From Leucobacter sp. wl10 (GTDB lineage Bacteria; Actinomycetota; Actinomycetes; Actinomycetales; Microbacteriaceae): a DNA stretch of 64,000 nucleotides. Shown piece after piece: positions 1,494 to 58,575 of this stretch (position 1 is the first letter of the stretch; each line of letters starts with the position of its first letter). The stretch is from NCBI RefSeq assembly GCF_003569785.1, contig NZ_KZ983991.1, positions 124,001-188,000 of the forward strand, read 5' to 3'. The position numbers and the translations under genes are program-made. The notes beneath the pieces are model-generated. The model saw only the letters and a program-made list of their open reading frames with translations. It was not told the DNA's origin and searched no databases.

Positions 1494-1540
1494 GCTGCTC
1501 CATCGTGAGATCGGGAGTGGGGTCGGTGAACCACACCATC

Positions 1541-2209: not shown

Positions 2210-2355
2210 CTTCGGTCCTTCCCAGGGCGGCGGGTGATCTGCCGGAGCATCGCCTCCGGCGTCGTTTCTCAGGCTAATCACACATCCGGCGGAAATGAGA
2301 CGGAAATCAGAAACTGTGGATAACTCGTACTCACCCACATCTGTGCACGACGTCG

Positions 2356-5885
<3,530 letters not shown>

Positions 5886-5895
5886 CCGCCCCAGT

Positions 5896-7098: not shown

Positions 7099-7106
7099 CG
7101 GATCCC

Positions 7107-8078
7107 TCAGTACAGCAGGTTCGCGAGACGACCTCGGGCCGCGACCACCCGCGGATCCGTCGCCCCGACCACCTCGAAGAGCTCGAGCAGACGCTCCCGC
7201 ACCGCGGTGCGGTCGTCCGCGTCGCTCGAGGCGAAGAGGTCGAGCAGGCGCAGGAACGCGTCCTCGACGTGCCCGCCGGCCACGTCGAGATCGGCCACCC
7301 GCAGCTGGGCCGCCACGTCGCCCGGGTCCGCCGCCGCGGCTTCGCGGATCTCGTCCGCGACGCCGCCCTCGAGCCGCTGCAGCAGCTTCATCTGCACGAG
7401 CGCGGCCCGGGCCTCGGCATCGGCCGGGGCCTTCACGAGCACGGCCTCCCACTCGCTCACGGCGGCGGCGTAATCGCCGCGCTCCGCGGCCTCGACCGCG
7501 GCCACGTGGGCCGGCGGGATCGGCGGTTCGGCCGGCTCCTCGACCGGCTCGCCCGCGTCGTCGGTGGCGCTCACGCGGCCGGTGACGCCCTGCTGCTCCG
7601 CGAGCTGGACGAGCTGGGCGAACACCTCGCGCACCTGAGCCTCGGGCACCGCGCCCTGGAACAGCGGAACGGGGCGGCCGCCCACGAGGGCGACGACGGT
7701 GGGGATCGACTGCGCCTGGAACGCCTGCGCCAGAGCCGGGTTCGCGTCGACGTCGACCTTCGCGAGCAGCACGCGCCCGTCGAGCTCGCGCGTCACCTTC
7801 TCGATCACCGGGCTCAGCGTCTTGCACGGCTGGCACCACTCCGCCCACAGGTCGAACACCACCGGCACGACGGCCGAGAGCTGGGCGATCTGCTCGAAGG
7901 TGGCGTCGGTCACGTCGAGCACGAGCGACGGAACGTCGACGGTCCGCCCGCCCGGGGCGGCTTGACCCGCCGCGCCGTCGCGCCCGTTCGCCGGATCGGC
8001 TGCCGACGAGCCGCGCGCGGCGAGGTGGCTCAGGTCGACTCCGCCGCCGGGGATCCGTTCGGGCATCTGCTGGCTCAT
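7107..8078 (-). CDS. Thioredoxin-fold protein with TPR-like C-terminus (CnoX/YbbN type)
   Basis: The 323-residue protein has a low-complexity N-terminus, a thioredoxin fold from about residue 50 to 155 with active site W81-C-Q-P-C85-K, and a C-terminal region (about 195-323) of helical repeats rich in Ala and Glu that resembles the tetratricopeptide half of E. coli YbbN/CnoX. There is no signal peptide, so it should act in the cytoplasm, probably as a redox chaperone or holdase. I chose ATG 8078, which has GAGGAA seven bases upstream, over a TTG six bases earlier. It is two bases after the stop of the upstream gene. Confidence 0.85.
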   Translation of the reverse strand: MSQQMPERIPGGGVDLSHLAARGSSAADPANGRDGAAGQAAPGGRTVDVPSLVLDVTDATFEQIAQLSAVVPVVFDLWAEWCQPCKTLSPVIEKVTRELDGRVLLAKVDVDANPALAQAFQAQSIPTVVALVGGRPVPLFQGAVPEAQVREVFAQLVQLAEQQGVTGRVSATDDAGEPVEEPAEPPIPPAHVAAVEAAERGDYAAAVSEWEAVLVKAPADAEARAALVQMKLLQRLEGGVADEIREAAAADPGDVAAQLRVADLDVAGGHVEDAFLRLLDLFASSDADDRTAVRERLLELFEVVGATDPRVVAARGRLANLLY

Positions 8079-8080
8079 GC

Positions 8081-10006: not shown

Positions 10007-10116
10007 GGGGGCTCCTTTGATGTCGGGGGAATGAATGGAAGACCAGTTCAACGGTACCGGAGCTTTCCTGATGCGACATCGATACGCATCCGATTCGAGC
10101 CCGGAATCGCGGCCCG

Positions 10117-10144
10117 TCGCGGCCGATCGCGGCCGATCGCGGCC
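10117..10144. repeat. 10-bp tandem repeat (2.8 copies) in the divergent intergenic region
   Basis: The unit TCGCGGCCGA occurs twice in full and once as an 8-base partial copy. It lies between the divergently transcribed envelope gene (start 10006) and coiled-coil gene (start 10272), where promoters for both must sit. I see no other clear element in this 265-base gap apart from a possible TATCGT -10 hexamer near 10195 for the plus-strand gene. Confidence 0.6.
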
Positions 10145-10271
10145 TCGGAAGAGCCGATCCGCGTTCTCCGGTACGCCGTCGGCGAAGTACGGTATCGTGG
10201 TTCTCTACCTCTTCGGCCGTCCGACGAATCCACCGCGGCCGTGGTGACCTCGTTCAGATTCCGGAGGCACA

Positions 10272-13130
10272 GTGTCCGAATCCGCCCAGCCGTTCTCCCC
10301 TGCGTTCCGCGGTTACAACCGCGACGAGGTCGACGAGCGCATGACCGCTCTCACGAGCCACATCAACACGCTCCAGTCGCACCTCGAATCCCTGCAGCAG
10401 GCGCACCAGCAGGCGACGCAGACGGGGCAGGAGCAGCGACAGCTCATCTCGGAGCTGCAGGAGCAGGTCGCCGAGCTCGGTGCGAGCGGTTACTCCGGGC
10501 TCGGACTGCGGGTCGAGAAGAGCCTGCAGGTCGCCGAGGACCACGCCCAGCGCCTCATGGCGCAGGCCGACCTCGACGCCGAGAAGCTGCGGCACTCCTC
10601 GGAGGAGGAGGCCAAGCGCGTGCTCACACAGGCGCAGCTCCGCGCCGACGAGCTGCTCGCCTCGGCCTCGGAGCAGGCCGAGGTCGTCGTCTCCGGGGCG
10701 CGCAACGACCTCGCCGAGCAGACCGCGGCGGCGAATGCCGAGCGCGAGCGGCTGCTCGACGAGGCGCGGCGGACAGCCGCACTCGAGCGCAGCTCCGCCG
10801 AACGCGAGGCCACGGCCGAGCGCGAGACCGCCCACCGCGACGCCCAGGCCGAGCTCGCCGGAGCCCGGGCGGAGGCCGAACGGCTGCTCTCCGAGGCGCG
10901 CACGCTCGCGAACGAGCTGCGCTCCGAGACCGAGCTGCACGCCGAGACGTTCGCCAGGCAGAAGGCCGAGAGCGAGCGAGAGGCCGAGCTCGAGCGAGCC
11001 CGGCTGATCCGCGAGGGAGAGCGGGCGCGAGCCGAGTTCGAGGCGAAGCGCCAGCGGGAGGAGGCCGAGCTCGAGGAGCGCTACACCGAGCGCCTGCGCG
11101 AGCTGGAGGCCGGCGTCGAGGCCCAGCGCCGCGAGCTGACCACCGAGATGGAGACGCTGCGCGGGCGCGTCGCGCAGGAGCGGCAGGAGCACGAGGCCTC
11201 CATCGCCGCCGAGCGCGAGCAGCACGAGCGCCGCATCGCCACCGAGCAGCGCGCGCACGCCGACCGCGTCGCGCAGGAGCGGCAGGAGCACGAGGCCTCC
11301 GTCGCACGGGCGATGGAGGCGCAGCGGGCGGAGCTCGCCACGCTCGCCGCTCAGGGCGCGCGCGAGCGGGAGCGGGCGGGCGAACTCGCCGCGCAGGAGC
11401 GCGCGGAGCTGCACGAGCGCGCCACCGGCGAGCTGAGCGCGACCCGGGAGCGGGAGGAGCAGCGGCTGCGGGAGGAGCGCCGGGCGCACGACGAGAGCAT
11501 CGCCGCGGAGCGCGAGGCGCACGAGCACGCGATCTCGGAGGAGCGCACCGCGCACGACGAGTCCCTCCGGGCCGAGATCGTGTCGCACCACGCCCGGCTC
11601 AGGGACGCGCAGGAGGCGCAGGAGAACCGGCTCTCCGCCGAACTCGAGGCCCACGTGTCGCGCCTGGCCCGCGAGCGCGGGGCCCATGAGCGCGCCATCA
11701 CGGATGAGCGCACCGCGCACGAGACCGCCCTGACCGCGGAGCGGCAGGCGCACGACGCGGCCCTCGCCGCCGAACGCGAGGCGCACGAGACCGAGCTCGC
11801 CGCTCGGCGGGAGGGTCAGGAGGCCCGGCTCGCCGCGCAGCTCGAGGAGCACGAGGCCCGCATCGCCGCCGAACGCGAAACGCACGAGGCGAGGATCGCG
11901 GAGGAGCGCCGAACGCACGAGACCGCGATCGCCGGGGAGCGCGCCGCGCACGAGACCGCCCTGACCGCGGAGCGGCAGGCGCACGACGCCCGCCTCGGCG
12001 GCGAGCTCGCAGCCCACCAGGATCGCCTCATCGCCGAGTGGGAGGAGCACCGCTCTCGAATCGACGCCGAGCGCGCCTCCCACGACGAGCAGCTCGCGAC
12101 GGAGCGACGGGACCAGGACGATCGGCTCGCCCGGGAGCTCGACGCCCACGGCGCCCGGATCGCCGACGAGTCGACGGTGCACGAGGAGCGCCTCGCCGCC
12201 CAGCTGCGCGAGCACCAGCGGCGCATCGACGACGAGCGGTCGGCCGAGGAGGAGCGCCTGCGCATTCAACGCGATGAGATCGCCGAGTCGCTGGGGCTCG
12301 AGCGGGAAGCGCTCGAGCTGCAGATGGATCGCGAGCGAGCGAAGCTCGCGGCCGACATCGAGCGGGAGCAGGAGGAGCACGAGCGTGCCGTCGCCGCCGA
12401 GCGCGAGCAGCACGAGGAGGACCTGCGCCGCGAGCGCGAGACCCAGGCCGCGGCCGTCGCCCGCGAGGTCGAGGCCAAGCGCGCCTCCGTCGTCGAGGAG
12501 ACCGATCTGCTGCGCGCCGACACGGTCGCCGAGCTGGCGGAGTACCGCGCGGCCGAGGAGGCGCGCCTCGCCCGGCTGCGCGCCGACGCGGAGGACGCCG
12601 CCCGCGAGCTGCAGCAGCGGGTCGAGGCCGACACGATCGAGTTCGACACCTCCTCCGCGCAGCGGAGGGAACAGCTGGAGCAGGAGCTCTCCGCTCGTCA
12701 GCATGAGGCGGCGGAGGCGGGCAGGCGCGAGATCGAGGCCACCCGGGCCGAACTGGAGGAGCTGCGCGCACAGCTCGAACTCGCGCGAGCCGAGTACGAT
12801 CGCATCACCTCGGAAGCCGCGCAGGACGCCCGGAGCACGCGGGCGGCAGCCGAGCGGCAGGCGGCCGAGATCGTGCTCGAGGCCGATCGCCGGGCGCAGA
12901 CCACATTCGCCGCCGCCGAGGACCGTGCCACCAAGGTGCTCGCCGCCGCGGAGGACCGCATGACCCAGCTCAAGGTCGAGCGCGGCGCCGTGGCGCGCTA
13001 CTTCGAGAGCCTCGGCGAGGTCATCACGAACGCGCAGAAGATGAGCACCGTCGCCGGTCGCCTCGTGGATCAGCCGGTCGCGGAGGCCGTGAACGCCGAT
13101 GACGCGCCGAGTGACGGGACGCGGTCGTGA
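10272..13130 (+). CDS. Scy/FilP-like polar-growth coiled-coil protein
   Basis: A 952-residue protein that is almost entirely coiled coil. The N-terminus carries a DivIVA-like motif (FRGYNRDEVDERM, residues 13-25), and the rest is Glu/Arg/Ala-rich helix. From residue 406 to 658 it is built of 23 uninterrupted 11-residue units, most beginning with His, and four more units occur near residue 300. The closest known type is the Streptomyces Scy/FilP group of cytoskeletal coiled coils that assemble with DivIVA at growing poles, which suggests a scaffold role here. That assignment rests on architecture, not on a conserved active site. The start is GTG, with GGAGG seven bases upstream. The stop overlaps the RNase HI start (GTGA). 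Confidence 0.8.
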   Translation: MSESAQPFSPAFRGYNRDEVDERMTALTSHINTLQSHLESLQQAHQQATQTGQEQRQLISELQEQVAELGASGYSGLGLRVEKSLQVAEDHAQRLMAQADLDAEKLRHSSEEEAKRVLTQAQLRADELLASASEQAEVVVSGARNDLAEQTAAANAERERLLDEARRTAALERSSAEREATAERETAHRDAQAELAGARAEAERLLSEARTLANELRSETELHAETFARQKAESEREAELERARLIREGERARAEFEAKRQREEAELEERYTERLRELEAGVEAQRRELTTEMETLRGRVAQERQEHEASIAAEREQHERRIATEQRAHADRVAQERQEHEASVARAMEAQRAELATLAAQGARERERAGELAAQERAELHERATGELSATREREEQRLREERRAHDESIAAEREAHEHAISEERTAHDESLRAEIVSHHARLRDAQEAQENRLSAELEAHVSRLARERGAHERAITDERTAHETALTAERQAHDAALAAEREAHETELAARREGQEARLAAQLEEHEARIAAERETHEARIAEERRTHETAIAGERAAHETALTAERQAHDARLGGELAAHQDRLIAEWEEHRSRIDAERASHDEQLATERRDQDDRLARELDAHGARIADESTVHEERLAAQLREHQRRIDDERSAEEERLRIQRDEIAESLGLEREALELQMDRERAKLAADIEREQEEHERAVAAEREQHEEDLRRERETQAAAVAREVEAKRASVVEETDLLRADTVAELAEYRAAEEARLARLRADAEDAARELQQRVEADTIEFDTSSAQRREQLEQELSARQHEAAEAGRREIEATRAELEELRAQLELARAEYDRITSEAAQDARSTRAAAERQAAEIVLEADRRAQTTFAAAEDRATKVLAAAEDRMTQLKVERGAVARYFESLGEVITNAQKMSTVAGRLVDQPVAEAVNADDAPSDGTRS
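11487..12245 (+). repeat. 23 in-frame copies of a 33-bp (11-residue) repeat
   Basis: This stretch encodes 23 back-to-back hendecads, for example HETALTAERQA, HDAALAAEREA and HEARIAAERET. Position 1 is His in 20 copies and Gln in three (copies 5, 11 and 20). Position 5 is almost always Leu or Ile, and positions 8-10 are mostly Glu-Arg-x. HETALTAERQA occurs twice exactly (copies 8 and 15), which points to recent duplication within the array. No copy has an insertion or deletion, so the 11-residue phase is held over 253 residues. Confidence 0.9.
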
Positions 13131-13651
13131 CGCTCACCGCGGCGGCGGACGGGTCGGCGCTCGGCAACCCCGGCCCCGCCGGCTGGGCGTGGGTGGTCGA
13201 CGAGCAGCAGTGGCGGGCCGGGGGGTGGCCGCGCGCCACCAACAATCAGGGCGAGCTGATGGCGGTGCTCGACCTGCTCCACGCGACTGCGGCGCGCGCC
13301 GACGAGCCGCTGCGGATCCTCTGCGACAGCCAGTACGTCATCAACTCGGTGACGCGGTGGATGCCCGGCTGGAAGCGGCGGGGCTGGCGCAAGGCCGACG
13401 GCAGGCCAGTGCTCAACCGCGAGCTGCTGGAGCAGCTGGACGCGGCGCTGACGGGGCGCGACGTTCGGTTCGAGTGGGTCAAGGGGCACGCGGGCCACCC
13501 GCTCAACGAGGCGGCGGATCTGCGCGCACGCGCCGCAGCCACGGCTTTCCAGGCCGGCCGACGGCCCGACGGCGGCCCCGGCCTCGCGGGGTCATCGGCT
13601 CCCACCCCGGAGGTCAGTCCGCATCGACCGGCTCCGCCGACGCTGTTCTAG
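13127..13651 (+). CDS. rnhA: Ribonuclease HI
   Basis: Cleaves the RNA strand of RNA-DNA hybrids. The N-terminus has ADGSALGNPGPAGWAW (first catalytic Asp in ADGS), followed by the NNQGEL segment with the catalytic Glu, the CDSQYVINSV segment with the next Asp, KGHAGHPLNE, and the final catalytic Asp in NEAAD. The core ends near residue 140, and a 35-residue Pro/Gly-rich tail follows. The GTG start overlaps the stop of the coiled-coil gene by 4 bases (GTGA), so translation is probably coupled. Its TAG stop shares the self-complementary CTAG with the stop of the convergent gene. Confidence 0.92.
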   Translation: MTLTAAADGSALGNPGPAGWAWVVDEQQWRAGGWPRATNNQGELMAVLDLLHATAARADEPLRILCDSQYVINSVTRWMPGWKRRGWRKADGRPVLNRELLEQLDAALTGRDVRFEWVKGHAGHPLNEAADLRARAAATAFQAGRRPDGGPGLAGSSAPTPEVSPHRPAPPTLF

Positions 13652-30835: not shown

Positions 30836-32290
30836 TCAGACCGCTCGCCGGCGGATCCTGACGTGCCGCTGCTGCATCATCCCCTGCAGGCCCTCGGGCC
30901 CGAGCTCACGCCCGAAGCCCGACATCTTCCACCCTCCGAAGGGCGCCTGGAGTTCGGACACGTCGTTGACGTTCACGCCGACGCCGCCCACGTGCAGCCG
31001 CTCGGCGATCCCCCACGCCCGATCGAGATCGCCGCCGAACACGTACGCCGCCAGCCCGTAGTCCCCGCGGTTCGCGAGTTCCGCCACGTCGTCGCCCGCC
31101 CCGAAGCGATGCACGGCGACGAGCGGGCCGAAGGTCTCCTCGCGCATCACGAGCGCGTCGGCGGGCACGCCGTCGAGCACGGTCGGCTCGAAGAACAGCG
31201 AGGGATCGAGCCGGGCGTCGACCTCTGCTCCTCCGCCGCCCGCCCGCAGGCGGGCTCCGGAGGCGAGCGCCTCGTCGATGTGCCGCCGCGACTTCTCGAT
31301 GACCGCCGCGGTCGTCACGGGGCCTCCCGTGACGCCGGGGTCGAAGCCGTGCCCGAGCCGGATCGCCCGCGCCTCGGCGGCCACGGCCTCGACGAAATCG
31401 TCCGCCACGCGCTCGTCGACGAGGATGCGGTTCACGGCGATGCAGATCTGGCCCGCATTCGAGAAGGATCGGCGCGCGGCCGCGGCGGCGGCCTCCGCGA
31501 CGTCGGCGTCGTCGAGCACGACGAACGGCGAATGCCCGCCGAGCTCCAGGGTGACCCGTTTCAGGGTCGAGGCCGCCGAGCGCATGATCGCCTGCCCGGT
31601 CGCCGTCGACGCCGTCGCCGTGATCGCCGCGATGCCCGGGTGCTCGGAGAGCCGCGAACCGGCCTCGAACGCGCCGGGAAGATCCGAGAGCACACCCTCG
31701 GGCAGGCCCGCATCGAAGAGGCACCGTACGATCTCCGCCACCGCGAGCGGCGTCTCGATCGGCGGCTTGACGATCACGGCGTTGCCCGCCGCGAGCGCGG
31801 GCCCGACCTTCCACGCGTAGAGGTCGACGGGATAGTTCCAGGGGACGATCGCCGCGACGACGCCCAGGGGCTCCCAGGTGACGAGCGAGCGGATGTCGCG
31901 TCTCGCCGCGGGCCGTATCGAGCCGGCGACGCGGCGGCCCTGCTCGGCGTAGTACCGGATCACCCGCGCCCCGAAGGTGATCTCCTTGCGGCTGTCCACC
32001 ACCGTCTTCCCCTGCTCGCGCGTGAGCAGCTCGGCGATGCGCTCGATGCGCTCGTCGATGAGGGCCGCCGCTCGCAGCAGGATCTCGCAGCGCTCGTCGG
32101 CGGTCAGCGCCGCCCAGCGGGCGGATCCGGCATGCCCGGCCTCGACGGCGCGATCCACGTCGCCCGCGCCCGCGACGGCGCTCGTCCCGACGAGTTCGCC
32201 GGTCGCCGGATCCCGCACCTCGGCCGTCTCACCGCTCAGAGCGGCGACCCACTCGCCCCCGATGCAGACGCCGCGCTCCAGCCCCGTCAT
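30836..32290 (-). CDS. NAD(P)-dependent aldehyde dehydrogenase
   Basis: A 484-residue aldehyde dehydrogenase. The Rossmann region has PWNYPVDLYAWKVGPALAAGNAVIVKPP, the catalytic Glu lies in LELGGHSPF and the nucleophilic Cys in NAGQICIAVNR. It oxidises an aldehyde to an acid. The substrate cannot be read from sequence. The ATG at 32290 shares a base with the stop of the SIS gene (TGATG), so it is the last gene of the GntR-headed operon and probably handles an aldehyde formed by the upstream steps. Confidence 0.9.
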   Translation of the reverse strand: MTGLERGVCIGGEWVAALSGETAEVRDPATGELVGTSAVAGAGDVDRAVEAGHAGSARWAALTADERCEILLRAAALIDERIERIAELLTREQGKTVVDSRKEITFGARVIRYYAEQGRRVAGSIRPAARRDIRSLVTWEPLGVVAAIVPWNYPVDLYAWKVGPALAAGNAVIVKPPIETPLAVAEIVRCLFDAGLPEGVLSDLPGAFEAGSRLSEHPGIAAITATASTATGQAIMRSAASTLKRVTLELGGHSPFVVLDDADVAEAAAAAARRSFSNAGQICIAVNRILVDERVADDFVEAVAAEARAIRLGHGFDPGVTGGPVTTAAVIEKSRRHIDEALASGARLRAGGGGAEVDARLDPSLFFEPTVLDGVPADALVMREETFGPLVAVHRFGAGDDVAELANRGDYGLAAYVFGGDLDRAWGIAERLHVGGVGVNVNDVSELQAPFGGWKMSGFGRELGPEGLQGMMQQRHVRIRRRAV

Positions 32291-33078
32291 CACCGCACCT
32301 CGGGGGCGGAGAACTCGCGCGAGCGGAGGCGGCGCCACAGCTCGGCGTAGTTGCGGTCGTTCTGCTGATGCGCGAACGTCGTGCGGTTCGAGTTGGTGTT
32401 CACCATGATCATCGGCTCGACCCCGCGGGCCACGAGCTCGGCGGTGGTCGAGGCGTTGATCGCGTGCCCGACCGCGATCGCGACCGACGTCGAGGTCGGT
32501 CCGACGGGGAACTCGAGGCCGTCGATGAACTGCGAGGCGTCCTCGAGCGGGATTCCGGTGTCGATCGTGACGTCGGCGATCTCGTAGAGGCGCTTGCCGC
32601 AGGAATGGCGGCTCTCGACCTGCGAGGAGTGCGGCACCGAGGTCACCGCGATGACCTTGAGCCCGCGCTCCTTGAACTCGACCGCCATGTCGAGGATCAC
32701 GGCGTTGATGCCGGAGTGCGAGAAGAGGATGAGCGCGTCGTCCTCCTTGAGCTGGTGGGATCGCAGGATCGCCGTGCCGTAGCCCTCCCGCGTGTGCAGG
32801 AAGCGGTACTGGGCGGTGCCCTGATCGCCGAGCACGTGGTGCATGAGCGCGATGGAGCTCTCCACGATGGGGCGGAAGCCCGTCACGCCCCCGGTGCGGG
32901 GGAACATCTCGAGCGCGGCGAAGCCGCCGTGGCCCGTGCCGAAGGTGAAGACGAGTCCGTCTCGGGCGATGGTGTCCGCGCAGATCTGCGCGGCCCGCCC
33001 GATAGCCTCGCCCTGGGTGTCGCGCACCCGCGCGAGCTTGGCGATCACGTCGTCGAAGTATCCCGTTGCGATGCTCAT
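32290..33078 (-). CDS. SIS-domain sugar isomerase-like protein (UPF0309 type)
   Basis: A 262-residue protein with one SIS domain. It has the UPF0309 hallmarks: VFTFGTGHGGFAALEMF, LILFSHSGINAV, VIAVTSVPHSSQVESRH, SCGKRLYEIADVTID and PVGPTSTSVAIA. SIS proteins bind phosphosugars and isomerise or sense them. UPF0309 members have no settled function. The ATG at 33078 is 53 bases from the phosphorylase stop. It probably handles the phosphosugar released by the phosphorylase or made by the kinase. Confidence 0.83.
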   Translation of the reverse strand: MSIATGYFDDVIAKLARVRDTQGEAIGRAAQICADTIARDGLVFTFGTGHGGFAALEMFPRTGGVTGFRPIVESSIALMHHVLGDQGTAQYRFLHTREGYGTAILRSHQLKEDDALILFSHSGINAVILDMAVEFKERGLKVIAVTSVPHSSQVESRHSCGKRLYEIADVTIDTGIPLEDASQFIDGLEFPVGPTSTSVAIAVGHAINASTTAELVARGVEPMIMVNTNSNRTTFAHQQNDRNYAELWRRLRSREFSAPEVR

Positions 33079-33131
33079 GGTTCTCTCTTCTTCCTGTGCG
33101 GTTGCCCGGTGGATGGTGTTGCCGGCGCGGG

Positions 33132-33869
33132 TCACTCGGCGGCGAGCGCCTCGAGGCCTGCCCGGAGCAGGTCGAGCTCCGCCTCGCGGCGGGGCTCGGC
33201 GTCGAGCTTGGAGTAGTCGCTGCCGCTCACGCTCGCGAGGCAGAGCGAGGCTGCCGCGATCCCGAGGGCGCGAGCGACGACGAGCACGGCGCTCGTCTCC
33301 ATGTCGGCGCCCACGACGTGCTGCAGGCGGCGCCTGGCCACGAGCTCGGCCTGTCTCTCGGGGTCCTCTCGGCGCATGAGGTCGGTGTAGAAGCCGTCCG
33401 CGGTCTCGTAGATGCCCGTGCGCACCGGCCGGCCCGTCGCCCGGGCGGCGGCCTCCACCCGCGCGGTCAGCTCGAAGTCGGGCACCGCCGGGTATCCGAT
33501 GGGCAGGTAGCCCGCGGAGGTTCCCTCGTTCCGGATCGCGCCGTGCGCGACGACGAGGTCGCCGAGCTCGCTGGGACCCGCAGTCATGACGGTCCCGAGG
33601 CGGAGCACGCGTCGGACCCCGATGGAGGCGAGCTCCTCCACGACCACGGCCGCGACGGGAGCCCCCATGCCGAAGGCGCTGACCGTGACTCGCCGGCCAC
33701 GGTGGCTCCCCGTCGCCGTTGTGAGACCGCGGTCCTCGTTGAGCAGTACCGCATCGTCGAGCAGCTCGGTCGCGAGCAGCACCCGGCCCCGGTCGCCGAC
33801 GACGATGGCGTCCTCCCCCACCTGGTCGGGCGTGCAGTGCAGGTACCAGGCCTCTCTCGGCGTTGTCAT
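33132..33869 (-). CDS. Nucleoside phosphorylase (NP-I / uridine phosphorylase-like)
   Basis: A 245-residue protein with the NP-I fold: VVGDRGRVLLATELLDD, SAFGMGAP, a phosphate-binding RLGTVMTAG, DLVVAHGAIRNEGTSAGY, ETADGFYTD and VGADMETSAV, the last being the region that contacts ribose. It should split an N-glycoside with phosphate into a base and a sugar-1-phosphate. The base pocket does not match one known specificity closely enough to name it. The ATG overlaps the kinase stop (ATGA). Confidence 0.85.
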   Translation of the reverse strand: MTTPREAWYLHCTPDQVGEDAIVVGDRGRVLLATELLDDAVLLNEDRGLTTATGSHRGRRVTVSAFGMGAPVAAVVVEELASIGVRRVLRLGTVMTAGPSELGDLVVAHGAIRNEGTSAGYLPIGYPAVPDFELTARVEAAARATGRPVRTGIYETADGFYTDLMRREDPERQAELVARRRLQHVVGADMETSAVLVVARALGIAAASLCLASVSGSDYSKLDAEPRREAELDLLRAGLEALAAE

Positions 33870-34801
33870 GCGTTCCTCTTCTCGTCTCGCTGGTGATCGG
33901 TCTGCAGGTCGGGATCGGGGCGTCTCTCGGAGAGCATCCGCGCGGTGGCATCGGATGCCGCGGCGAGGTGCGCGAGCATCTCCTCCGGTTCGGGATCGCC
34001 CCCGGCCGCGAGGAGCGCCACCAGAGTGCCGGAGAAGGTGTCGCCGGCCCCGGTCGTGTCGACGCCCGTCACCGGCTGTGCGGGAACCGACCCCACGCCG
34101 GTGAGTTCGCATCCGGGGCCGACGCGGAGCAGCTCGGCCCCCTCCGATCCGCGCGTCACGACGACGTAGGCTCCGGGCGCCGCTGCCGCGGCGACGGTCT
34201 CGAGGTATCCGCGCTCGCCCTCGCTCAGGGTCACGAGACGCGCCCGGGAGGCGAGCTCGGCGACGAGTTCGGCGGTGAGCGAGGCGGGATCCTGCTTGAC
34301 GATCCAGAAGACGGGGGCGCCGGCCGGGATCGCGGTGAGCAGCTCCCGGGTGGTCTCCTCCGGCCCGACCGTCACGACCGCGGCGTCCGCGGTGGCGAGC
34401 AGCTCGCGCTGCGCCGCGGTGAGCCGGTCGGCGTGGCAGTCCCCGGGGTCGAAGAGGCAGATGGCCCCCTGGCCCTCGGGGTAGAGGAGGTGGGCGCTCG
34501 GGCTGCGCGAGCCCGAGCGCGCGACGCCCGAGGTGTCGGCCCCGCCGGTCTCCACCGCGCGCACCCACGCCTCCCCCTCGGCGTCGCCTCCGACCCACGA
34601 GAGCGCGGCGACCCGCACGGCGCCTCCCGCGGCGCGGGCCGCCGCGCGGGTGACGTGGGCGATCCCGCCGTACCTCGGCCACTCGTCCGCGCGGGAGCGC
34701 ACTGTCGTCGTCGCGTGGTGTCCCTCGAACGGCGCGAGCTGCATGGCGTAGTCCACGCTCGCGTAACCGCTCACCACCAGGGTCGGGAGATGCTCCGTCA
34801 C
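33866..34801 (-). CDS. PfkB-family carbohydrate kinase
   Basis: A 311-residue ribokinase-like enzyme. The N-terminus has VSGYASVDYAM and the C-terminus the catalytic anion-hole motif GVDTTGAGDTFSGTLVAL. It phosphorylates a sugar or a nucleoside. Which one is not readable, though the neighbours suggest a ribose-containing compound. The GTG start overlaps the hydrolase stop (GTGA) and the stop overlaps the phosphorylase start (ATGA). Confidence 0.88.
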   Translation of the reverse strand: MTEHLPTLVVSGYASVDYAMQLAPFEGHHATTTVRSRADEWPRYGGIAHVTRAAARAAGGAVRVAALSWVGGDAEGEAWVRAVETGGADTSGVARSGSRSPSAHLLYPEGQGAICLFDPGDCHADRLTAAQRELLATADAAVVTVGPEETTRELLTAIPAGAPVFWIVKQDPASLTAELVAELASRARLVTLSEGERGYLETVAAAAAPGAYVVVTRGSEGAELLRVGPGCELTGVGSVPAQPVTGVDTTGAGDTFSGTLVALLAAGGDPEPEEMLAHLAAASDATARMLSERRPDPDLQTDHQRDEKRNA

Positions 34802-35367
34802 AGCATCTCCTCGGCCTCTGCGAGCGGCACGACCCGGCCGAAGTAGCGCCCGATGTCCTCGAGGCTCGCCTCGGCGAGGTGCGGGCGGTTGGAGTTCGTC
34901 GCCTCGCGCGGCACGACGACGTCGAAACCGCCCGCGAACGCGTCCTGCACGGTCGCCCGGATACACACGTTGGTCTTCACCCCGGCGACGACGACCCGCG
35001 TGATCCTCTGCTCCCGCAGGAGGAGGTCGAGGTCGGTCGCGTAGAAGCCCGAGTAGCGGCGCTTCGGCACGACGATCTCCCGGTCGCGGTCGACGGGTTC
35101 GAACCCGGGGAAGAACGCCGCGTCTCGCGCTCCGTCCTGGTGGTGGCGCGGGAGTTTCGCGAACTCGTAGTCGTCGAGCCCCCGATAGTGCCGTTCGACG
35201 ACGTGCACGAGCAGCGCGTCGCGGGCCCGCGCGGCGTCGCGCAGCGACGCGAGCGCCGGCAGCGTCTCCTCGACCTCGGGGTAGTAGTTGGCGTGACCGG
35301 GATCGTAGAAGGAGTTGATCACGTCCACGAGCAGCAGCGCGGTGTCGGGGCGGCGGGAGTACGACAT
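34798..35367 (-). CDS. Isochorismatase-family cysteine hydrolase
   Basis: A 189-residue hydrolase. The triad is Asp15 (LLLVDVINSF), Lys102 (VPKRRYSGFYAT) and Cys135 (GVKTNVCIRATVQDAF). Members cleave amides such as nicotinamide, ureidoacrylate or N-carbamoylsarcosine. The metal-binding DxH motif of nicotinamidases is not evident: the segment reads HVVERHYRGLDD. I therefore do not call it PncA. The ATG at 35367 is preceded by GAAGGAC. It lies 24 bases from the permease gene. Confidence 0.85.
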   Translation of the reverse strand: MSYSRRPDTALLLVDVINSFYDPGHANYYPEVEETLPALASLRDAARARDALLVHVVERHYRGLDDYEFAKLPRHHQDGARDAAFFPGFEPVDRDREIVVPKRRYSGFYATDLDLLLREQRITRVVVAGVKTNVCIRATVQDAFAGGFDVVVPREATNSNRPHLAEASLEDIGRYFGRVVPLAEAEEML

Positions 35368-35391
35368 GGTGTCCTTCACGGTGTTCAGGGG

Positions 35392-36294
35392 TCAGGCGGT
35401 CACGCGCGCCCGCCTGCGCAGGCCGGTAAAGCCTGCCCAGGCGAGTACCGCGACGACGGCGATGTACGGGAGGGTCTGGATCAGGTCCGCGGAGAATCCG
35501 CCGCTCGTCTGGAGTCGGATCTGCAGCGCGTCGAAGAAGGAGAAGAGCAGGCACGCGAGCGCCGTCGCCAACGGCTTGGAGCGGCCGAAGTAGAAGGCCG
35601 CGAGCGCGACGAAGCCGCGCCCGGCGATCATGTTCTCGTTGAAGAGACCGCTCACGCCCAGCGAGAGCGCGACGCCGCCCAGGCCGGCGAGCAGGCCGGC
35701 CAGCATCCCCGCGGTGTCGCGGAGACCGAGCGTGCGGACGCCGAGCGACGCGCTCGCCCGCTCGCTCACGCCCGTCGCGCGGGTGCGGACGCCCCACCGG
35801 GTGTTGGCGAAGGCCCAGGCCAGGAACGGCACGAGCAGCGCGGCGAGCCAGAACAGCGCGTCCTTTCCGCTCAGCATCGCTCCCAGGACCGGGATCCCGT
35901 CGACACCCGGGATCGAGATGCGCGGGATCCGGGGCTGATCGGGGAATCGCAGTGTGCCCGAGACCCCAAAGACCGCGCGGAGCACGAAGCCGACGATCCC
36001 GAGCGCGACGATGTTGAAGCCGAGCCCCACGATGATCTCGTTGGCCGAGAGCCGCGTGATCACCAGGCTCATGACGAGTCCGGCGAGCGCCCCGCCGAGA
36101 CCGCCCGCGAGCACGCCGACGAGCCAGTTGCCGGTCGCCGCGCTCGCGAGGATGCCGAGGAACGCCCCGACCAGCATCTGCCCCTCGAGGCCGATGTTGA
36201 CCACGCCCGCACGGCGGTGGATCGCGCCGCCCAGCGCGGCGAGCACGAGCGGCACCGCCAGCAATAGCGTCGAGTTGATGATGCTGTCGATCAT
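35392..36294 (-). CDS. ABC transporter permease, nucleoside (BMP) type, second subunit
   Basis: A 300-residue permease with about eight membrane spans. RRAGVVNIGLEGQMLVGAF at residues 27-45 is the signature of the permease partner in nucleoside ABC importers such as NupQ/YufQ of Bacillus. The ATG overlaps the stop of the first permease gene (ATGA). It forms the membrane channel together with that subunit. Confidence 0.9.
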   Translation of the reverse strand: MIDSIINSTLLLAVPLVLAALGGAIHRRAGVVNIGLEGQMLVGAFLGILASAATGNWLVGVLAGGLGGALAGLVMSLVITRLSANEIIVGLGFNIVALGIVGFVLRAVFGVSGTLRFPDQPRIPRISIPGVDGIPVLGAMLSGKDALFWLAALLVPFLAWAFANTRWGVRTRATGVSERASASLGVRTLGLRDTAGMLAGLLAGLGGVALSLGVSGLFNENMIAGRGFVALAAFYFGRSKPLATALACLLFSFFDALQIRLQTSGGFSADLIQTLPYIAVVAVLAWAGFTGLRRRARVTA

Positions 36295-37421
36295 GCGCTC
36301 GCCTCCGTGTTCTCCGCGGACCTCCTGCGCCTGCGCAACCGCGGAATGGCGAACTGCGCGACCGCGAGCATCATGACGGCGCCCTGCAGGATGTCGATGA
36401 GCTGGATGGGGATGTTCACGAAGAGCTGCACGGTCGCGCCGGCGGCTGCGAGCGCACCGAAGGCGACCGCGCCGATCACGATCCCGATCGGATTGAAACG
36501 CGCGAGCAGCGCGATCGCGATGCCGGTGAACCCGAAGTTCGCCGAGAAGCCGACCGAGAAGCGGTGGACCAGGCCGAGGGTGTGCACGGCTCCCCCGATG
36601 CCGCCGATCGCGCCCGAGGCGAGCATGGCCGTCATCAGGACCGGGCGAACGCGGAGCCCCTGCGCCGCCGAGAAGCGCGGCGTCCGGCCGACCGCGTCGA
36701 ACTCGAAGCCGAGCTGAGTGCGCCTGGTCCAGACCGCGTAGACGATGACGAGGGCGATCGCGATGAGGAAGCCCGCGCTGAGCTGACCGGGAGGGGCGAG
36801 CAGCGGGAGCTCGGCCGGGGTCGCGATGTAGGCGGTCGCCGAATTCGCCTGGCCGGGGGCCAGGAAGAACGACTGCACGAGCCAGGCCGTCACGCCCGCG
36901 ACGATGAAATTGAACATGAGGGTCGAGACGACCTCGTCCACGCCGAGCCAGGTGCGCAGCGCCGCCGGGATCAGCGCCACGAGCGCGCCCGCGAGGCCGC
37001 CCGCGACGAGGCAGGCGGCGATCGCGACGGCGGGCGGCGCATCCGTCATTCCGGCGCCCACCACGGAGGCGGCGAGTCCCGCGAAGGCGAAGCTCCCCTC
37101 CACGCCGACGTTGAACACGCCGGCACGGAAGGCGATCGCCGCCGCGAGGCCCGTGAAGAGCAGCGGGGTGGCCGCGGTGAGGGTCGCGTTGATCCTCGCC
37201 GCGTCGCCGAAGGCCTCCTGCGCGAGCATGCCGTAGATCTCGACGGGGCTCTCGCCGCCGATCAGGAGCGCGACGGCGCCGACGAGGAGCGCGATCGCCA
37301 CCGGCACTGCGATGCGCCACGCCGACCGGCCGATACGCCGCCAGGGCATTCCGCGCTGCTGCACGGGGACGGGTACGTAGCTCGTGTTCGCGCCCGTCTC
37401 GGGCGCCTGCTGGAAGGTCAC
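36291..37421 (-). CDS. ABC transporter permease, nucleoside (BMP) type, first subunit
   Basis: A 376-residue permease (NupP/YufP type) with a polar N-terminal 35 residues and about nine spans. The conserved FRAGVFNVGVEGSFAFAGL mirrors the equivalent motif in the partner permease. The GTG start overlaps the ATPase stop (GTGA). The C-terminus ends in a basic RRRRR cluster on the cytoplasmic side. Confidence 0.9.
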   Translation of the reverse strand: MTFQQAPETGANTSYVPVPVQQRGMPWRRIGRSAWRIAVPVAIALLVGAVALLIGGESPVEIYGMLAQEAFGDAARINATLTAATPLLFTGLAAAIAFRAGVFNVGVEGSFAFAGLAASVVGAGMTDAPPAVAIAACLVAGGLAGALVALIPAALRTWLGVDEVVSTLMFNFIVAGVTAWLVQSFFLAPGQANSATAYIATPAELPLLAPPGQLSAGFLIAIALVIVYAVWTRRTQLGFEFDAVGRTPRFSAAQGLRVRPVLMTAMLASGAIGGIGGAVHTLGLVHRFSVGFSANFGFTGIAIALLARFNPIGIVIGAVAFGALAAAGATVQLFVNIPIQLIDILQGAVMMLAVAQFAIPRLRRRRRSAENTEASA

Positions 37422-38971
37422 CCTTCTCCCTCCCGCCGCCCGGTGCCGGTGCCGAGCATGAGCTTGCCGAGCTCGACGCGATCGGCGCCGCGCCCGAGCT
37501 CGCCGACGACGCGGCCCTGATGCAGCACCACGACGCGGTCGGCGAGCGCCTGGATCTCGTCGAGCTCCTCGCTGAACAGCAAGACGGCGCCGCCCGCGTC
37601 GCGCGCCTCGCGCAGCTGCTCGTGGATGAAGCCGATCCCGCGGATGTCGACGCCGCGGGTCGGCTGGCTCGCGATGAGCACAGAGGGTTTCTCCCGCAGC
37701 TCGCGGGCGATCACCACGCGCTGCTGGTTGCCGCCGGAGAGGCTCGACATCGGATCCCGATCTGAGCCGTAGCGCACGGCGCCCGACTGCAGCACATCGG
37801 AGACCGCGGCCCGCACCCGGGAGCGCACGAGCCAGCCGAGGCGAGAGAGCTTCGCCAGGGCGGGCGTGGCGATGGCGTTCTCGGCGATCGACAGCTCGAG
37901 CGCGAGGCCCTCCTGCTTGCGGTCGGCGCTCACGTAGCCGAACCCGGCGCGCCGCCGCGCGCGGACGGAGGGTCTCGCGAGCCGCTCCCCGCGCAGCCTG
38001 ATCGTGCCCCGCTCGGGCTTCCGCAGCCCGATGAGGGCCTCGGCGAGCTCCTCCTGGCCGTTGCCGGTGACCGCGGCGACGCCCAGGATCTCCCCCGAGC
38101 GCACGTCGAGGTCGATGCCCGACAGGCGCTCCACCCCCCGGTCGTCCCGCGCGGCGAGGCCGCGGCACTCGAGCACCACGTCGCCGGGCTCCCCGGGCCT
38201 CGGCGCGTCCGCGGGCAGGGGCTCCCCGCCCATGATGAGGCGGGCGAGCATCTCGACCGAGGCCTCGCCGCTCGGGATGGCCGGCTGGGTCACCCCCGCC
38301 CGCAGCACCGTGATCTCATCGGCGACCCGCATCACCTCGCCGAGCTTGTGGCTGATGAACACGACCGTCCGCCCGTCGTCGGCGAGCCGTCGGAGCAGGC
38401 CGAGCAGCTGAGTGGCCTGGGCCGGCGCGAGCACGGCCGTGGGCTCGTCGAGGATGAGCACGTCGGCGCCCCTGCCGATCAAGCGCAGTATCTCGATCTG
38501 CTGCTGGATCGCGATCGGCGCGTGCGCGGCCCGGAGGCCCCAGTCGATGTCGGTGCCGACCGACCGCGCGAGCCGCTCGGCCTCCTCGCGCGCCCGGCGC
38601 CAGTCGATGCGGCCGAAGTCGGAGGGCTCATGGCCCAGCACGAGGTTCTCGAGCAGCGTGAGGTCGGGCACGATGGCGAGTTCCTGCTGCACGAGGCCGA
38701 TCCCGCGCCTGATCGCGTCGCGCGGGCCGGCGAAGCGCACGGGCGCGCCGTCGACCAGGATCTCGCCGTCGTCGGGCTGGTCGAGGCCGTAGAGCATTCT
38801 CATCAGCGTGCTCTTGCCCGCGCCGTTCTCCCCGATGACCGCGAGCACTCTTCCGCGGTGCGCGACGAGCGACACGTCGCGGTTCGCGCGCACCGGCCCG
38901 AAGGACCTCGCGATCCCGCGCGCCTCGATCCGGGGCGGGGAGTCGCGCTCCGCCTGGGTCACGTCTTCCAT
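37418..38971 (-). CDS. ABC transporter ATP-binding protein, double-domain nucleoside type
   Basis: A 517-residue protein with two ATPase domains, like NupO/YufO and RbsA. The first has Walker A GENGAGKST, Walker B VLILDEPTAVL and a degenerate signature (IAIQQQIEILR). The second has a degenerate Walker A (VTGNGQEE), a full LSGGNQQR signature and LIASQPTRG, which lacks the catalytic Glu. Thus one composite ATP site looks active, which is common in this family. I chose ATG 38971 (MEDVTQAE), with GGAAGAGC about ten bases upstream. Confidence 0.92.
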   Translation of the reverse strand: MEDVTQAERDSPPRIEARGIARSFGPVRANRDVSLVAHRGRVLAVIGENGAGKSTLMRMLYGLDQPDDGEILVDGAPVRFAGPRDAIRRGIGLVQQELAIVPDLTLLENLVLGHEPSDFGRIDWRRAREEAERLARSVGTDIDWGLRAAHAPIAIQQQIEILRLIGRGADVLILDEPTAVLAPAQATQLLGLLRRLADDGRTVVFISHKLGEVMRVADEITVLRAGVTQPAIPSGEASVEMLARLIMGGEPLPADAPRPGEPGDVVLECRGLAARDDRGVERLSGIDLDVRSGEILGVAAVTGNGQEELAEALIGLRKPERGTIRLRGERLARPSVRARRRAGFGYVSADRKQEGLALELSIAENAIATPALAKLSRLGWLVRSRVRAAVSDVLQSGAVRYGSDRDPMSSLSGGNQQRVVIARELREKPSVLIASQPTRGVDIRGIGFIHEQLREARDAGGAVLLFSEELDEIQALADRVVVLHQGRVVGELGRGADRVELGKLMLGTGTGRREGEG

Positions 38972-39006
38972 CACCTGTTCAGCTCTTCCGACGCGTCCGT
39001 GCCGGC

Positions 39007-40068
39007 CTAGCCGCCCTGGTAGAAGTCGGGGTAGCCGTCGCTCACCACGTTCCACACGTCGATGCTGCCGTCGATGATGCCCTGCCTCAGCTCCTCGATC
39101 CGGTCGAGCGTGGCCTGCGGAATGGCGTCCTTCGTGAACTCGAAGTCGGTCAGCCCCACCGCGTCCTCCTTGAGGCCGAAGGTGAGCGTCTTGCCGCCGG
39201 GGAAGGAGCCTTTCGCGTAGTCGCCGATCACCGTCTCGACGGCGAGGTCCGTGCGCTTCAGCACGCTCGTGAGCACCGAGCCCGGCGCGACGCCGTCCTG
39301 ATTGTCATCCACGCCGATGGCGTAGCGGTTCGACTCATCGGCGGCCTGGATCACCCCGGCACCGGTGCCGCCCGCCACCGAGTACACGATGTCGGCTCCC
39401 CGCTCGAACATCGACTGCGCGAGTTGCTGGCCCTTGGCCGGGTCCGCGAAGTCGTTGGAGTACGCGGTCAGCACCTCGACCTCGGGATCGATGTCCTTCG
39501 CGCCCTGGATGAAGCCGACGAGGAACTTGTCGATGCCCACGCCCGAGGTACCGCCGATCACCCCGATCACCTTGTCCGCGTTGATCCTCGGATCCTCGGT
39601 GTTCGTCGTCTGCATCGCCGCGAGGGCGCCCGCGAGATAGGAGCCCTCCTGCTCCTGGAAGAGTACCGAGGCCACGTTGTCGCCCTTGGCCTCCGCGTTG
39701 ACGATCACCCAGTCGCTCTCCGGGAAGTCCGCTGCGACCTGACTGATGATCTGGTTGTGTGAGAACTCCAGGTCGATGACGAGGTCGACCCCCGACTGGC
39801 CGGCGCGGCGCAACAGCTGCTCGCCCTGACCGACGACGTCGTCGGACTCGATCGTGCTGCCCTGGAGACCGGTGTCGGCGAGCGCCCTCTCGAAGCCCGC
39901 GTTCGCGAGATCGTTGTAGGACTGGTCGCCGAGGCCGCCCTGCGCGATGACGAGGGCGACCCTGCCCCCGTCTTTACCGCTGCTGTCAGCCGCGCCCGTC
40001 GAGCAGGCTGTGAGCGCGAGGAGCGTAGCCGCCGCCGGCACGACGAGCAGTGCTCGGGTTCGTTTCAT
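39007..40068 (-). CDS. BMP-family substrate-binding lipoprotein
   Basis: A 353-residue Bmp/PnrA-family binding protein, the extracellular receptor of the importer. The signal peptide ends in LALTAC with Cys22 as the lipid anchor. The mature part has VALVIAQGGLGDQSYNDLANAGFERAL and GVIGGTSGVGIDKFLVGFIQGAKD, typical of nucleoside-binding PnrA/BmpA proteins. GGAGG lies six bases before the ATG at 40068. The start sits inside the gntR reading frame, which overlaps by 83 bases. Confidence 0.92.
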   Translation of the reverse strand: MKRTRALLVVPAAATLLALTACSTGAADSSGKDGGRVALVIAQGGLGDQSYNDLANAGFERALADTGLQGSTIESDDVVGQGEQLLRRAGQSGVDLVIDLEFSHNQIISQVAADFPESDWVIVNAEAKGDNVASVLFQEQEGSYLAGALAAMQTTNTEDPRINADKVIGVIGGTSGVGIDKFLVGFIQGAKDIDPEVEVLTAYSNDFADPAKGQQLAQSMFERGADIVYSVAGGTGAGVIQAADESNRYAIGVDDNQDGVAPGSVLTSVLKRTDLAVETVIGDYAKGSFPGGKTLTFGLKEDAVGLTDFEFTKDAIPQATLDRIEELRQGIIDGSIDVWNVVSDGYPDFYQGG

Positions 40069-40831
40069 GAGATCCTCCGTTGGATGGGTTGTTGAGGGTG
40101 ACGCGGTAGAGGTAGTGAGTGCCGAGATAACGGGCACGCACGTGCTCAAGGAGCTGCCCCGAGGCGTCGTGGGAGCGGCGGTCTACCTCGATGAGCGCGG
40201 TCCCCGGGTCGACGCCGAGGTGCTCGGCCTCGTCGGGCTCCGCGTTGATTGCGCGCAGCGTCTCCTCGCCCTCAGCGAGGGAGAGACCGGCGGCACGGAG
40301 GGCGCCGTAGAACGAGAAGTCGAGCTGCGCCGCGCGCCACTCGTCGAGTCCGACCCGGGCGGCGATGTAGTCGGGCACGATGAGCCGCTGCAGGCCGACC
40401 GCGCTGCCGCCCACGCTGCGCAACCGCTCGAGCACGACCAGACCGACGTCCTCGGGGAAGGGCGAGCCGGGTCGATCCTGCGCACCGGGGGCGAACTCCG
40501 CGTAGTCGAGCAGGATGTTGCCCGGAACGAGGCCCAGGCTGTCGATGTGCTCGCTGAAGCTCGTGAGCTCGGGCAGCTTGCGCTCCATCGGGCGCGCGCG
40601 CACGAAGGTGCCCTTGCCGCGCCGGCGTGAGACGAGTCCTCTGTCGACGAGAAGCTCGAACGCCTTGAGGATCGTGGCGCGGGAGAGGCCGTTCTCGGCT
40701 GCGAGCATCGGCTCGCTCGGCAGCTGGGTGCCGGGCGACAGCTGCTGATCCGCGATGTGGGCTTCGAGCGCATTGGCCAATTGCATGTACAGCGGCTGCG
40801 CACCCCGCTCGGTGTCGAGATCGAATCGCAT
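39986..40831 (-). CDS. GntR-family (HutC-type) transcription regulator
   Basis: A 281-residue regulator with an N-terminal winged helix (LPSEPMLAAENGLSRATILKAFELLVDRGLVSRRRGKGTFV, residues ~38-78) and a C-terminal UTRA ligand domain (about 95-245). UTRA regulators often sense a substrate or phosphosugar of the operon they control. A typical UTRA end is reached near residue 245; after it the frame runs on for about 35 residues into the start of the lipoprotein gene, an 83-base overlap. As first gene it likely regulates itself and the following nine genes. Confidence 0.88.
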   Translation of the reverse strand: MRFDLDTERGAQPLYMQLANALEAHIADQQLSPGTQLPSEPMLAAENGLSRATILKAFELLVDRGLVSRRRGKGTFVRARPMERKLPELTSFSEHIDSLGLVPGNILLDYAEFAPGAQDRPGSPFPEDVGLVVLERLRSVGGSAVGLQRLIVPDYIAARVGLDEWRAAQLDFSFYGALRAAGLSLAEGEETLRAINAEPDEAEHLGVDPGTALIEVDRRSHDASGQLLEHVRARYLGTHYLYRVTLNNPSNGGSHETNPSTARRAGGGYAPRAHSLLDGRG

Positions 40832-40860
40832 CACTGCCCTCTATTCCGCATCTTATCCTG

Positions 40861-58498: not shown

Positions 58499-58575
58499 CG
58501 CGGGGTGGAGCAGTTCGGTAGCTCGCCGGGCTCATAACCCGGAGGTCGTGGGTTCAAATCCCGCCCCCGCAACCA
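58499..58575 (+). tRNA. Initiator tRNA-fMet (anticodon CAT)
   Basis: A 77-base gene that folds into a full cloverleaf and encodes the CCA end. The acceptor stem CGCGGGG/CCCCGCA has the unpaired C1-A72 that marks initiator tRNAs, and the anticodon stem has the three G-C pairs (GGG CTCATAA CCC) of initiators. The T-loop is TTCAAAT. A TAGAGT -10 hexamer at 58481-58486 with TTCGCA 18 bases upstream is a likely promoter. Confidence 0.97.

Follow-up and report, generated by a model that had tools for sequence, protein, structure and literature searches.

The window analysed here is a 64,000-nucleotide stretch of the genome of Leucobacter sp. wl10 (contig NZ_KZ983991.1), which contains, at positions 30836-40834 on the minus strand, a run of ten genes (Table 1) that we refer to as the cassette; what the cassette imports and breaks down is the subject of this work. 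Pfam assigns the products to the GntR+UTRA, Bmp, double ABC ATPase, BPD_transp_2 (two proteins), isochorismatase, PfkB, PNP_UDP_1, SIS and Aldedh families, and Pfam and NCBIfam thereby confirm the ten minus-strand genes and the families named in an earlier reading of the DNA that was made from its letters (the sequence-only reading). The statement in that reading that most of these genes overlap by 1-4 bases is only just true: such overlaps occur at five of the nine junctions; the GntR and Bmp genes share 83 bases, and the remaining three junctions are gaps of 12, 35 and 53 bases. The G+C content of the cassette is 71.6%, compared to 72.0% for the window, and its composition resembles that of its flanks. 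Scans for promoters and terminators and a scan against Rfam added nothing on the unit beyond one tRNA, whose gene (window positions 58499-58572) is the sole match in the window to reach the Rfam gathering threshold, and no named function was obtained from PHROGs.

Table 1. Genes of the cassette and the site in front of it (window positions)
Feature	Position	Strand	Basis
GntR/HutC-type regulator (P0010)	39986..40831	-	Pfam GntR+UTRA; orthologue in 12/12 loci, split in two pieces in L058
Bmp/PnrA-type binding lipoprotein (P0009)	39007..40068	-	Pfam Bmp, 196 bits; sequence-nearest solved relatives TmpC and Lbp
Double ABC ATPase (P0008)	37418..38971	-	two ABC_tran stretches (Pfam)
Permease 1 (P0007)	36291..37421	-	BPD_transp_2
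Permease 2 (P0006)	35392..36294	-	BPD_transp_2
Isochorismatase-family amide hydrolase (P0005)	34798..35379	-	Pfam, 115 bits
PfkB-family kinase (P0004)	33866..34801	-	Pfam PfkB
Nucleoside phosphorylase, NP-I family (P0003)	33132..33869	-	PNP_UDP_1
SIS phosphosugar enzyme, UPF0309/NagS relative (P0002)	32290..33078	-	NCBIfam NF002805; sequence relative of NagS SCO4393
Aldehyde dehydrogenase (P0001)	30836..32290	-	Aldedh, 497 bits
Probable GntR operator TTGACCGGACAA	40861..40872	-	some 30 bases upstream of the GntR start

Conservation and putative operator of the cassette

Twelve loci were compared (our own, L033, L035, L036, L038-L043, L057 and L058), which come from this genome, Leucobacter sp. 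Ag1, eight other genomes of the same family (Microbacteriaceae) and two Rhizobiaceae megaplasmids. The genes for the isochorismatase, PfkB, phosphorylase, SIS and aldehyde dehydrogenase (ALDH) proteins follow each other in the same order in all 12 loci, and thus in two phyla, some of them being broken in L035 and L058. A GntR gene is also present in every locus, and a Bmp importer lies directly ahead of the enzymes in 11 of them. The remaining one, L043 (genome G152), has a GntR gene, what by eye reads as a glyoxalase-like gene, and an importer of the RbsABC type, and its importer and enzymes constitute two separate units; a dGTPase-like gene on the opposite strand, likewise read by eye, splits the importer from the enzymes (2299-8217). 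The sequence-only reading had proposed a search for the gene set in other Microbacteriaceae, expecting the set to be conserved together elsewhere and the enzymes not to be expressed separately from the importer. This search found the cassette in Leucobacter sp. Ag1 and the eight other same-family genomes, and the first expectation was borne out; L043 is the only locus of the 12 with separate importer and enzyme units, each with a copy of the operator described below.

The cassette proteins share 62-93% identity with their counterparts in Leucobacter sp. Ag1 (77% for GntR). A search for the phosphorylase in 299 same-family genomes gave some match in 67, of which seven (own included) reach at least 59% identity, the next being at 42%; the 23 short loci (L010-L032) around weaker matches contain no other cassette enzyme, with a weak Bmp match in one. 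The SIS protein was found in nine of 398 same-family genomes, own included, and nine listed genomes of the own genus are without it; searches of 394 genomes of the class (E 1e-60) and 396 of the order (E 1e-45) returned the own copy only. Among plasmids, 42 records match the SIS protein, and the best two (57-60%) carry the same cassette, namely Agrobacterium vitis pRvVAR031a, the annotation of which matches the gene order, and Rhizobium lusitanum p_1. Eight of the proteins show correlated pairwise identities (r 0.78-0.98; 11 of the 12 loci, with L058 left out), as is expected of a jointly inherited unit. The ten genes form one conserved unit, beyond chance, and the patchy distribution of this unit, which crosses phyla, makes transfer likely. 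Within the family the SIS protein ranks first among the enzymes in conservation (mean 88%), and across phyla (59%) it equals the isochorismatase; the kinase is the least conserved enzyme (50% within the family and 34% across phyla).

The long overlap between the GntR and Bmp genes (39986-40068 in the window) is kept across phyla, measuring 71-83 bases in L038-L041 and 80 bases in A. vitis. It should be noted that the ALDH gene of R. lusitanum (L035, 14764-16199) is read in two frames, owing to a frame break or a sequencing error. In addition, the A. vitis plasmid (L036, 37-972) has a choline/ethanolamine kinase-like gene just ahead of the cassette, which matches the guanitoxin GntI kinase profile weakly and had no match in the ten other cassette loci scanned.

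A 12-base near-palindrome of the TTGACCGGACAA type, with one difference at most, is located ahead of the GntR gene in all 12 loci; variants are TTGTCCGGACAA in L033, TTGACTGGACAA in the two Rhizobiaceae and TTGAACGGACAA in L043. When the 12 genomes or records were scanned with TTGNCYGGACAA, a pattern derived from the sites upstream of GntR, 16 site rows were obtained, three of them away from a cassette (in G026, on contig C25 of G000 and in R. lusitanum), compared to 8 for the reversed control pattern. In L043 the importer and enzyme units each have their own site (positions 2299 and 8217). The TTGACCGGACAA-type site is a probable operator of the GntR protein, which would repress the unit at this site and be released by the imported compound or an intermediate.

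Enzyme families and their known relatives

The cassette shares with the operons of Bmp/PnrA importers and phosphorylases the Bmp lipoprotein, the double ATPase, two permeases and an NP-I phosphorylase with phosphate/ribose residues, but differs from them in having an amide hydrolase, PfkB and SIS proteins, one or more ALDHs and, in relatives, glutaryl-CoA genes. Judging from its family, the importer would take up a ribonucleoside-like compound. In E. coli Udp we take Gly26, Arg30, Arg48, Arg91, Thr94 and Glu198 to be the phosphate/ribose residues, Gln166 and Arg168 to be the uracil contacts, and His8 to contact O5'. The cassette phosphorylase keeps the six phosphate/ribose positions in 12/12 loci, as NP-I enzymes do, which is consistent with an enzyme that cleaves a C1'-N bond with phosphate; at the position of His8 it has Tyr in 12/12. 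Its structure model (pLDDT 82) resembles purine, uridine and methylthioadenosine (MTA) phosphorylases alike (Z 28-30). Assignment as a uridine phosphorylase was rejected, the places of Gln166 and Arg168 being occupied by a gap and a non-Arg residue and the score reaching 113 of the 280 bits needed; so was assignment as DeoD (85 of 230 bits needed), where the place of Asp204, presumably the catalytic residue of purine nucleoside phosphorylase, is Val in 12/12, in a comparison in which the DeoD reference sequence is provisional and the loop alignment uncertain. Salvage of uridine or purines was rejected on the missing base-contact residues.

The hydrolase P0005 keeps Asp, Lys and Cys, which we take to be the expected triad of the isochorismatase family, in 12/12 loci, and family and residues suggest that it takes off an amide nitrogen. 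Family and catalytic triad are shared with RutB, biuret hydrolase and N-carbamoylsarcosine amidohydrolase, but the protein falls far under the cut-offs for RutB (65 of 378 bits) and biuret hydrolase (58 of 370 bits). Nor does it resemble the nicotinamidase PncA: the E. coli metal motif DWHP..H falls in an alignment gap and the score is 35 of 174 bits, in agreement with the sequence-only reading, which saw no nicotinamidase motif. That reading had also turned down salvage of nicotinamide riboside, and rightly so, because this hydrolase is not PncA-like and pncB adjoins only this copy of the cassette (0/11 other loci); NAD salvage is rejected on the same grounds.

For the kinase, a profile built from 10 of the 12 sequences lies nearest to fructokinase/ribokinase (60 bits), with adenosine kinases at 27 bits or less. 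The SIS protein P0002 scores 259 bits against NCBIfam NF002805 (cut-off 135) and has invariant phosphate-binding serines, which places it in UPF0309; its structure model, with a mean pLDDT of 51, is too poor for use. It aligns with NagS (SCO4393) at 124 bits. According to PMC12680351, NagS is a SIS-family dehydratase of N-acetylglucosamine-6-phosphate (GlcNAc-6-phosphate), of which His53, Ser54, Arg64, Ser91, Glu94, Ser119, Ser121, Asp179 and Asn228 were mutated. Six of these nine residues, including the phosphate-binding Ser119 and Ser121, are kept in the cassette protein (His53, Arg64, Ser119, Ser121, Asp179 and Asn228), and the SIS and ALDH genes adjoin in 12/12 loci, which would suit a scheme in which the SIS protein acts like NagS and removes water from the freed sugar phosphate, the core ALDH oxidises a sugar-derived aldehyde and the second ALDH found in relatives (see below) alone serves the ring. 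We consider this scheme very improbable. NagS activity itself was rejected, since Ser54 is replaced by Gly, Ser91 by Thr or Ala and Glu94 by His; three NagS relatives with 26-36% identity were inactive on GlcNAc-6-phosphate (PMC12680351), and the gene setting of the cassette protein also differs from that of NagS.

The best NCBIfam profile of the core ALDH is succinate-semialdehyde dehydrogenase, with 420 of the 646 bits needed. Together, the GntR, amide hydrolase, PfkB and SIS genes recall the plan of the fructosamine operons: frl and fra have a GntR regulator, a PfkB-type kinase and a SIS protein, and fra has an amide hydrolase as well. On such a plan the kinase would phosphorylate the sugar of an amide-bearing sugar-amine conjugate, the SIS protein would be the deglycase and the amine would be converted to glutarate. 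This is improbable, as the phosphorylase retains the machinery for an N-ribosyl bond, the unit is without an aminotransferase for a five-carbon amine, and the SIS protein belongs with UPF0309 and NagS; the phosphorylase, the ALDH and the probable glutarate end of the cassette have no place in frl/fra.

Glutarate-type genes and related loci

Downstream, the operon extends into a gene for a class III CoA-transferase and one for an acyl-CoA dehydrogenase in seven of the eight other genomes of the family (L038-L042, L057 and L058), which span four genera. A second ALDH gene sits between the core ALDH and CoA-transferase genes in six of these seven, overlapping the CoA-transferase gene by 4 bases in 6/6 and the core ALDH gene by 1-4 bases in 4/6; the CoA-transferase and dehydrogenase genes overlap in 2/7 and are 10-76 bases apart elsewhere. 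Among the ten solved proteins that the dehydrogenase matches best, nine bear the name glutaryl-CoA dehydrogenase (3sf6 with 509 bits, 1siq with 346, the weakest with 318) and the other, 4w9u (327 bits), is called acyl-CoA dehydrogenase; the next protein scores 250. Against NCBIfam NF045552 the dehydrogenase reaches 165 of 470 bits. The CoA-transferase matches a solved CaiB/BaiF protein (311 bits) and then succinate-hydroxymethylglutarate CoA-transferase (285 bits), and its best listed NCBIfam profile is NF052585 (succinate-glutarate CoA-transferase), with 352 of 750 bits and hence below the cut-off; the best NCBIfam profiles of the second ALDH, also below cut-off, are those of alpha-ketoglutaric semialdehyde dehydrogenase. 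Because the operons of relatives include a CoA-transferase and a probable glutaryl-CoA dehydrogenase, the compound probably ends as glutarate, and the pathway, which in the sequence-only reading finished with an aldehyde oxidation, probably continues.

In our own genome a CoA-transferase/dehydrogenase pair (55% and 64% identity) is present on contig C8, where a PucR-like gene (read by eye) adjoins it and where a search for a cassette-type operator found none; Leucobacter sp. Ag1 and G152 also have such a pair elsewhere in the genome, and the record of the A. vitis plasmid, the only A. vitis record covered, contains no glutaryl-CoA dehydrogenase relative. On the opposite strand of contig C8 (L056), some 4 kb away from the pair, lies another operon with a Bmp importer (1263-5982 and 10027-12423).

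The cassette-bearing genome G132 has a second cluster (L101; contig C1, 2380001-2396000, positions 2371-13289) with genes for AA_synth, an isochorismatase (34-36% identical to P0005), an amidohydrolase, a nucleoside hydrolase, an SDR protein, a CoA-transferase, a glutaryl-CoA dehydrogenase relative and a ribose-type importer. It looks like another riboside-to-glutarate unit and, by analogy, its presence in G132 supports a pyridine riboside as the cassette substrate. Two Sulfitobacter plasmids encode relatives of its amidohydrolase (41-42% identical) at most 4 kb away from a gene annotated as 6-hydroxynicotinate reductase, in runs that also hold a molybdopterin-type oxidoreductase and two AA_synth genes. 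Of 25 records with a match to this amidohydrolase, four were opened: two have the 6-hydroxynicotinate reductase nearby, one has AA_synth only and one has neither. About 50 kb from its cassette, R. lusitanum p_1 carries relatives of 6-hydroxynicotinate reductase (69%) and of glutaryl-CoA dehydrogenase (46%) together with an AA_synth pair, all within 9 kb; the L101 amidohydrolase has no match near that reductase relative.

When plasmids were searched with P0005, the only other isochorismatases at E 1e-20 or better were in seven Sinorhizobium/Rhizobium records. One of them, Sinorhizobium medicae pMl3 (L055, 2380-10734), holds a Bmp importer, two nucleoside hydrolases, an isochorismatase, MarR and AA_synth in one run, apparently a similar unit in which hydrolases replace the phosphorylase. 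The neighbours of hydrolases of the P0005 type thus include nucleosidases in both loci opened (L101 and L055), and glutarate genes in one. AA_synth was rejected as a stand-alone marker for being too common: a Bmp importer and a nucleoside hydrolase are near it in three of the seven stretches fetched, whereas the two do not occur together in the other four. In the three (L121, L124 and L125, from G026, G185 and G132), an SDR gene is also nearby, and such loci possibly represent a family of nucleoside-catabolic units in Microbacteriaceae.

Candidate substrate and route

Glutarate is a five-carbon chain. Since the pyridine ring alone among the common nucleoside bases has five contiguous carbons, purines and pyrimidines being without them, a nicotinamide-type riboside is the best reading of the substrate. 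Nicotinamide, moreover, bears an amide, and a carboxyl group beside a formyl group is readily lost as CO2. Our tentative view, to which we give slightly less than an even chance, is that the regulon imports and catabolises a pyridine riboside of the nicotinamide type, either reduced to the dihydro level or hydrated, with the ring ending as glutarate. The sequence-only reading had set aside catabolism of such a riboside along with its salvage; it is now the best reading, on grounds that are independent of pncB. Its proposal of a single regulated unit that imports and catabolises an amide-bearing N-glycoside is supported, but its endpoint is revised and probably lies beyond the aldehyde oxidation. 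Observed directly are which genes are present, their order and conservation, the recurring DNA site and, in relatives, the glutarate-type genes downstream. That one regulon acts on an amide-bearing N-riboside and yields glutarate is a well-supported inference; that the ring is a pyridine is moderately supported; support is weak for its being reduced or hydrated and for the roles given to the PfkB and SIS proteins.

The reduced or hydrated riboside is the most likely form because the unit has no ring hydroxylase, ring reductase or lactam hydrolase, and the candidate substrates would be reduced nicotinamide riboside or its 6-hydroxy hydrate. Starting from 1,4-dihydronicotinamide, opening of the ring would give ammonia and 2-carbamoylpentanedial; amide hydrolysis and decarboxylation would convert the latter to pentanedial, the carboxamide being lost as ammonia and CO2; and two aldehyde oxidations by the ALDH(s) would yield glutarate, which the CoA-transferase and glutaryl-CoA dehydrogenase would turn into crotonyl-CoA. 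On paper this balance closes with hydrolysis and the two aldehyde oxidations and would need no further redox enzyme. The PfkB kinase and SIS protein would process the ribose part.

The catabolism of nicotinate in Azorhizobium ends in glutaryl-CoA. Hydrolysis of a pyridine ring towards a five-carbon dicarboxylate is common to the nicotinate catabolism of Eubacterium barkeri and Azorhizobium caulinodans and to our scheme, nicotinate breakdown proceeding via 6-hydroxynicotinate and tetrahydro-6-oxonicotinate to 2-formylglutarate, with an enamidase in E. barkeri (PMC9304392). The cassette differs from these systems in having a putative riboside importer, a phosphorylase and ALDHs, and in being without hydroxylase, 6-hydroxynicotinate reductase and enamidase.

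The same scheme could start from an oxidised pyridine riboside (nicotinamide, nicotinate or pyridone riboside), if reduction or hydroxylation is encoded elsewhere or if the ring opens to glutaconaldehyde instead of glutaraldehyde. This would account equally well for the glutarate genes and the amide hydrolase, and the L101 amidohydrolase, related to one near a 6-hydroxynicotinate reductase, would suit a 6-oxo ring. We nonetheless regard an oxidised substrate as rather unlikely, given that a hydroxylase, a ring reductase and a lactam hydrolase are all absent from the cassette genes of the 12 loci, which have ALDHs instead. Also unlikely is a modified nucleoside with a base other than pyridine, the glutarate genes having been added in some genera for another five-carbon product or for unrelated glutarate. 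Such a substrate would fit the five of 12 loci that are without adjacent glutarate genes, and the phosphorylase pocket tells only that it lacks contacts for uracil and the common purines; yet no common purine or pyrimidine contains a chain of five carbons, and the glutarate genes lie in the same run, with many overlapping junctions, in seven of the eight other genomes of the family, from four genera.

Several observations weigh against a reduced or hydrated pyridine riboside as substrate. The assignment of the pyridine depends on carbon counting and a neighbouring analogue, the nicotinate link of which is partial, as both reductase-bearing amidohydrolase contexts are from Sulfitobacter (12 of the 25 records). 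The PfkB and SIS proteins are not needed by the scheme, even though no other enzyme of the unit is as well conserved as SIS within the family, and the cassettes of the 12 loci encode neither 6-hydroxynicotinate reductase nor enamidase. AA_synth is present in 8 of the 12 genomes or records, never in the cassette, and is found neither in our own genome nor in Leucobacter sp. Ag1. The five loci without glutarate genes beside the cassette are our own, those of Leucobacter sp. Ag1 and G152, and the two from Rhizobiaceae, and four of the seven extended operons belong to one genus. Neither the downstream dehydrogenase nor the CoA-transferase reaches an NCBIfam equivalogue cut-off, and 3mpi, also named glutaryl-CoA dehydrogenase, has only 149 bits to the dehydrogenase. 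Finally, pncB, although divergent from the cassette in the window, is not a companion of the cassette elsewhere.

The sequence-only reading knew of no described pathway with this gene set, and a description of the set or the route was likewise not found in the literature searched, mostly without subscription papers; nor was a paper on UPF0309. Among the papers listed on dihydronicotinamide riboside, NADHX, enamidase and 6-hydroxynicotinate reductase, none concerned this unit as judged from title and start of abstract, and the hydrated riboside is not named in the passages of PMC11715087 covered.

A more specific possibility, which we hold to be doubtful, is that the cassette is a pathway dedicated to reduced or hydrated nicotinamide riboside, the debris of NADH and of NADHX, which arises when NADH is damaged; in this pathway the ring would become glutaryl-CoA and the sugar a phosphosugar by way of a NagS-like SIS protein with a new specificity. 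Pyridine nucleotides are made by every cell and, to our knowledge, bacterial feeding on ribosides from NAD(H) breakdown is little studied. If our reading is true, the cassette would provide a complete gene set for the catabolism of an NAD(H)-derived riboside, which is testable and whose end product, glutarate, could be traced by label. A nucleoside phosphorylase, an isochorismatase-type hydrolase and a SIS enzyme would then each have a new specificity, and the GntR regulator, with apparently one target, might be usable as a sensor.

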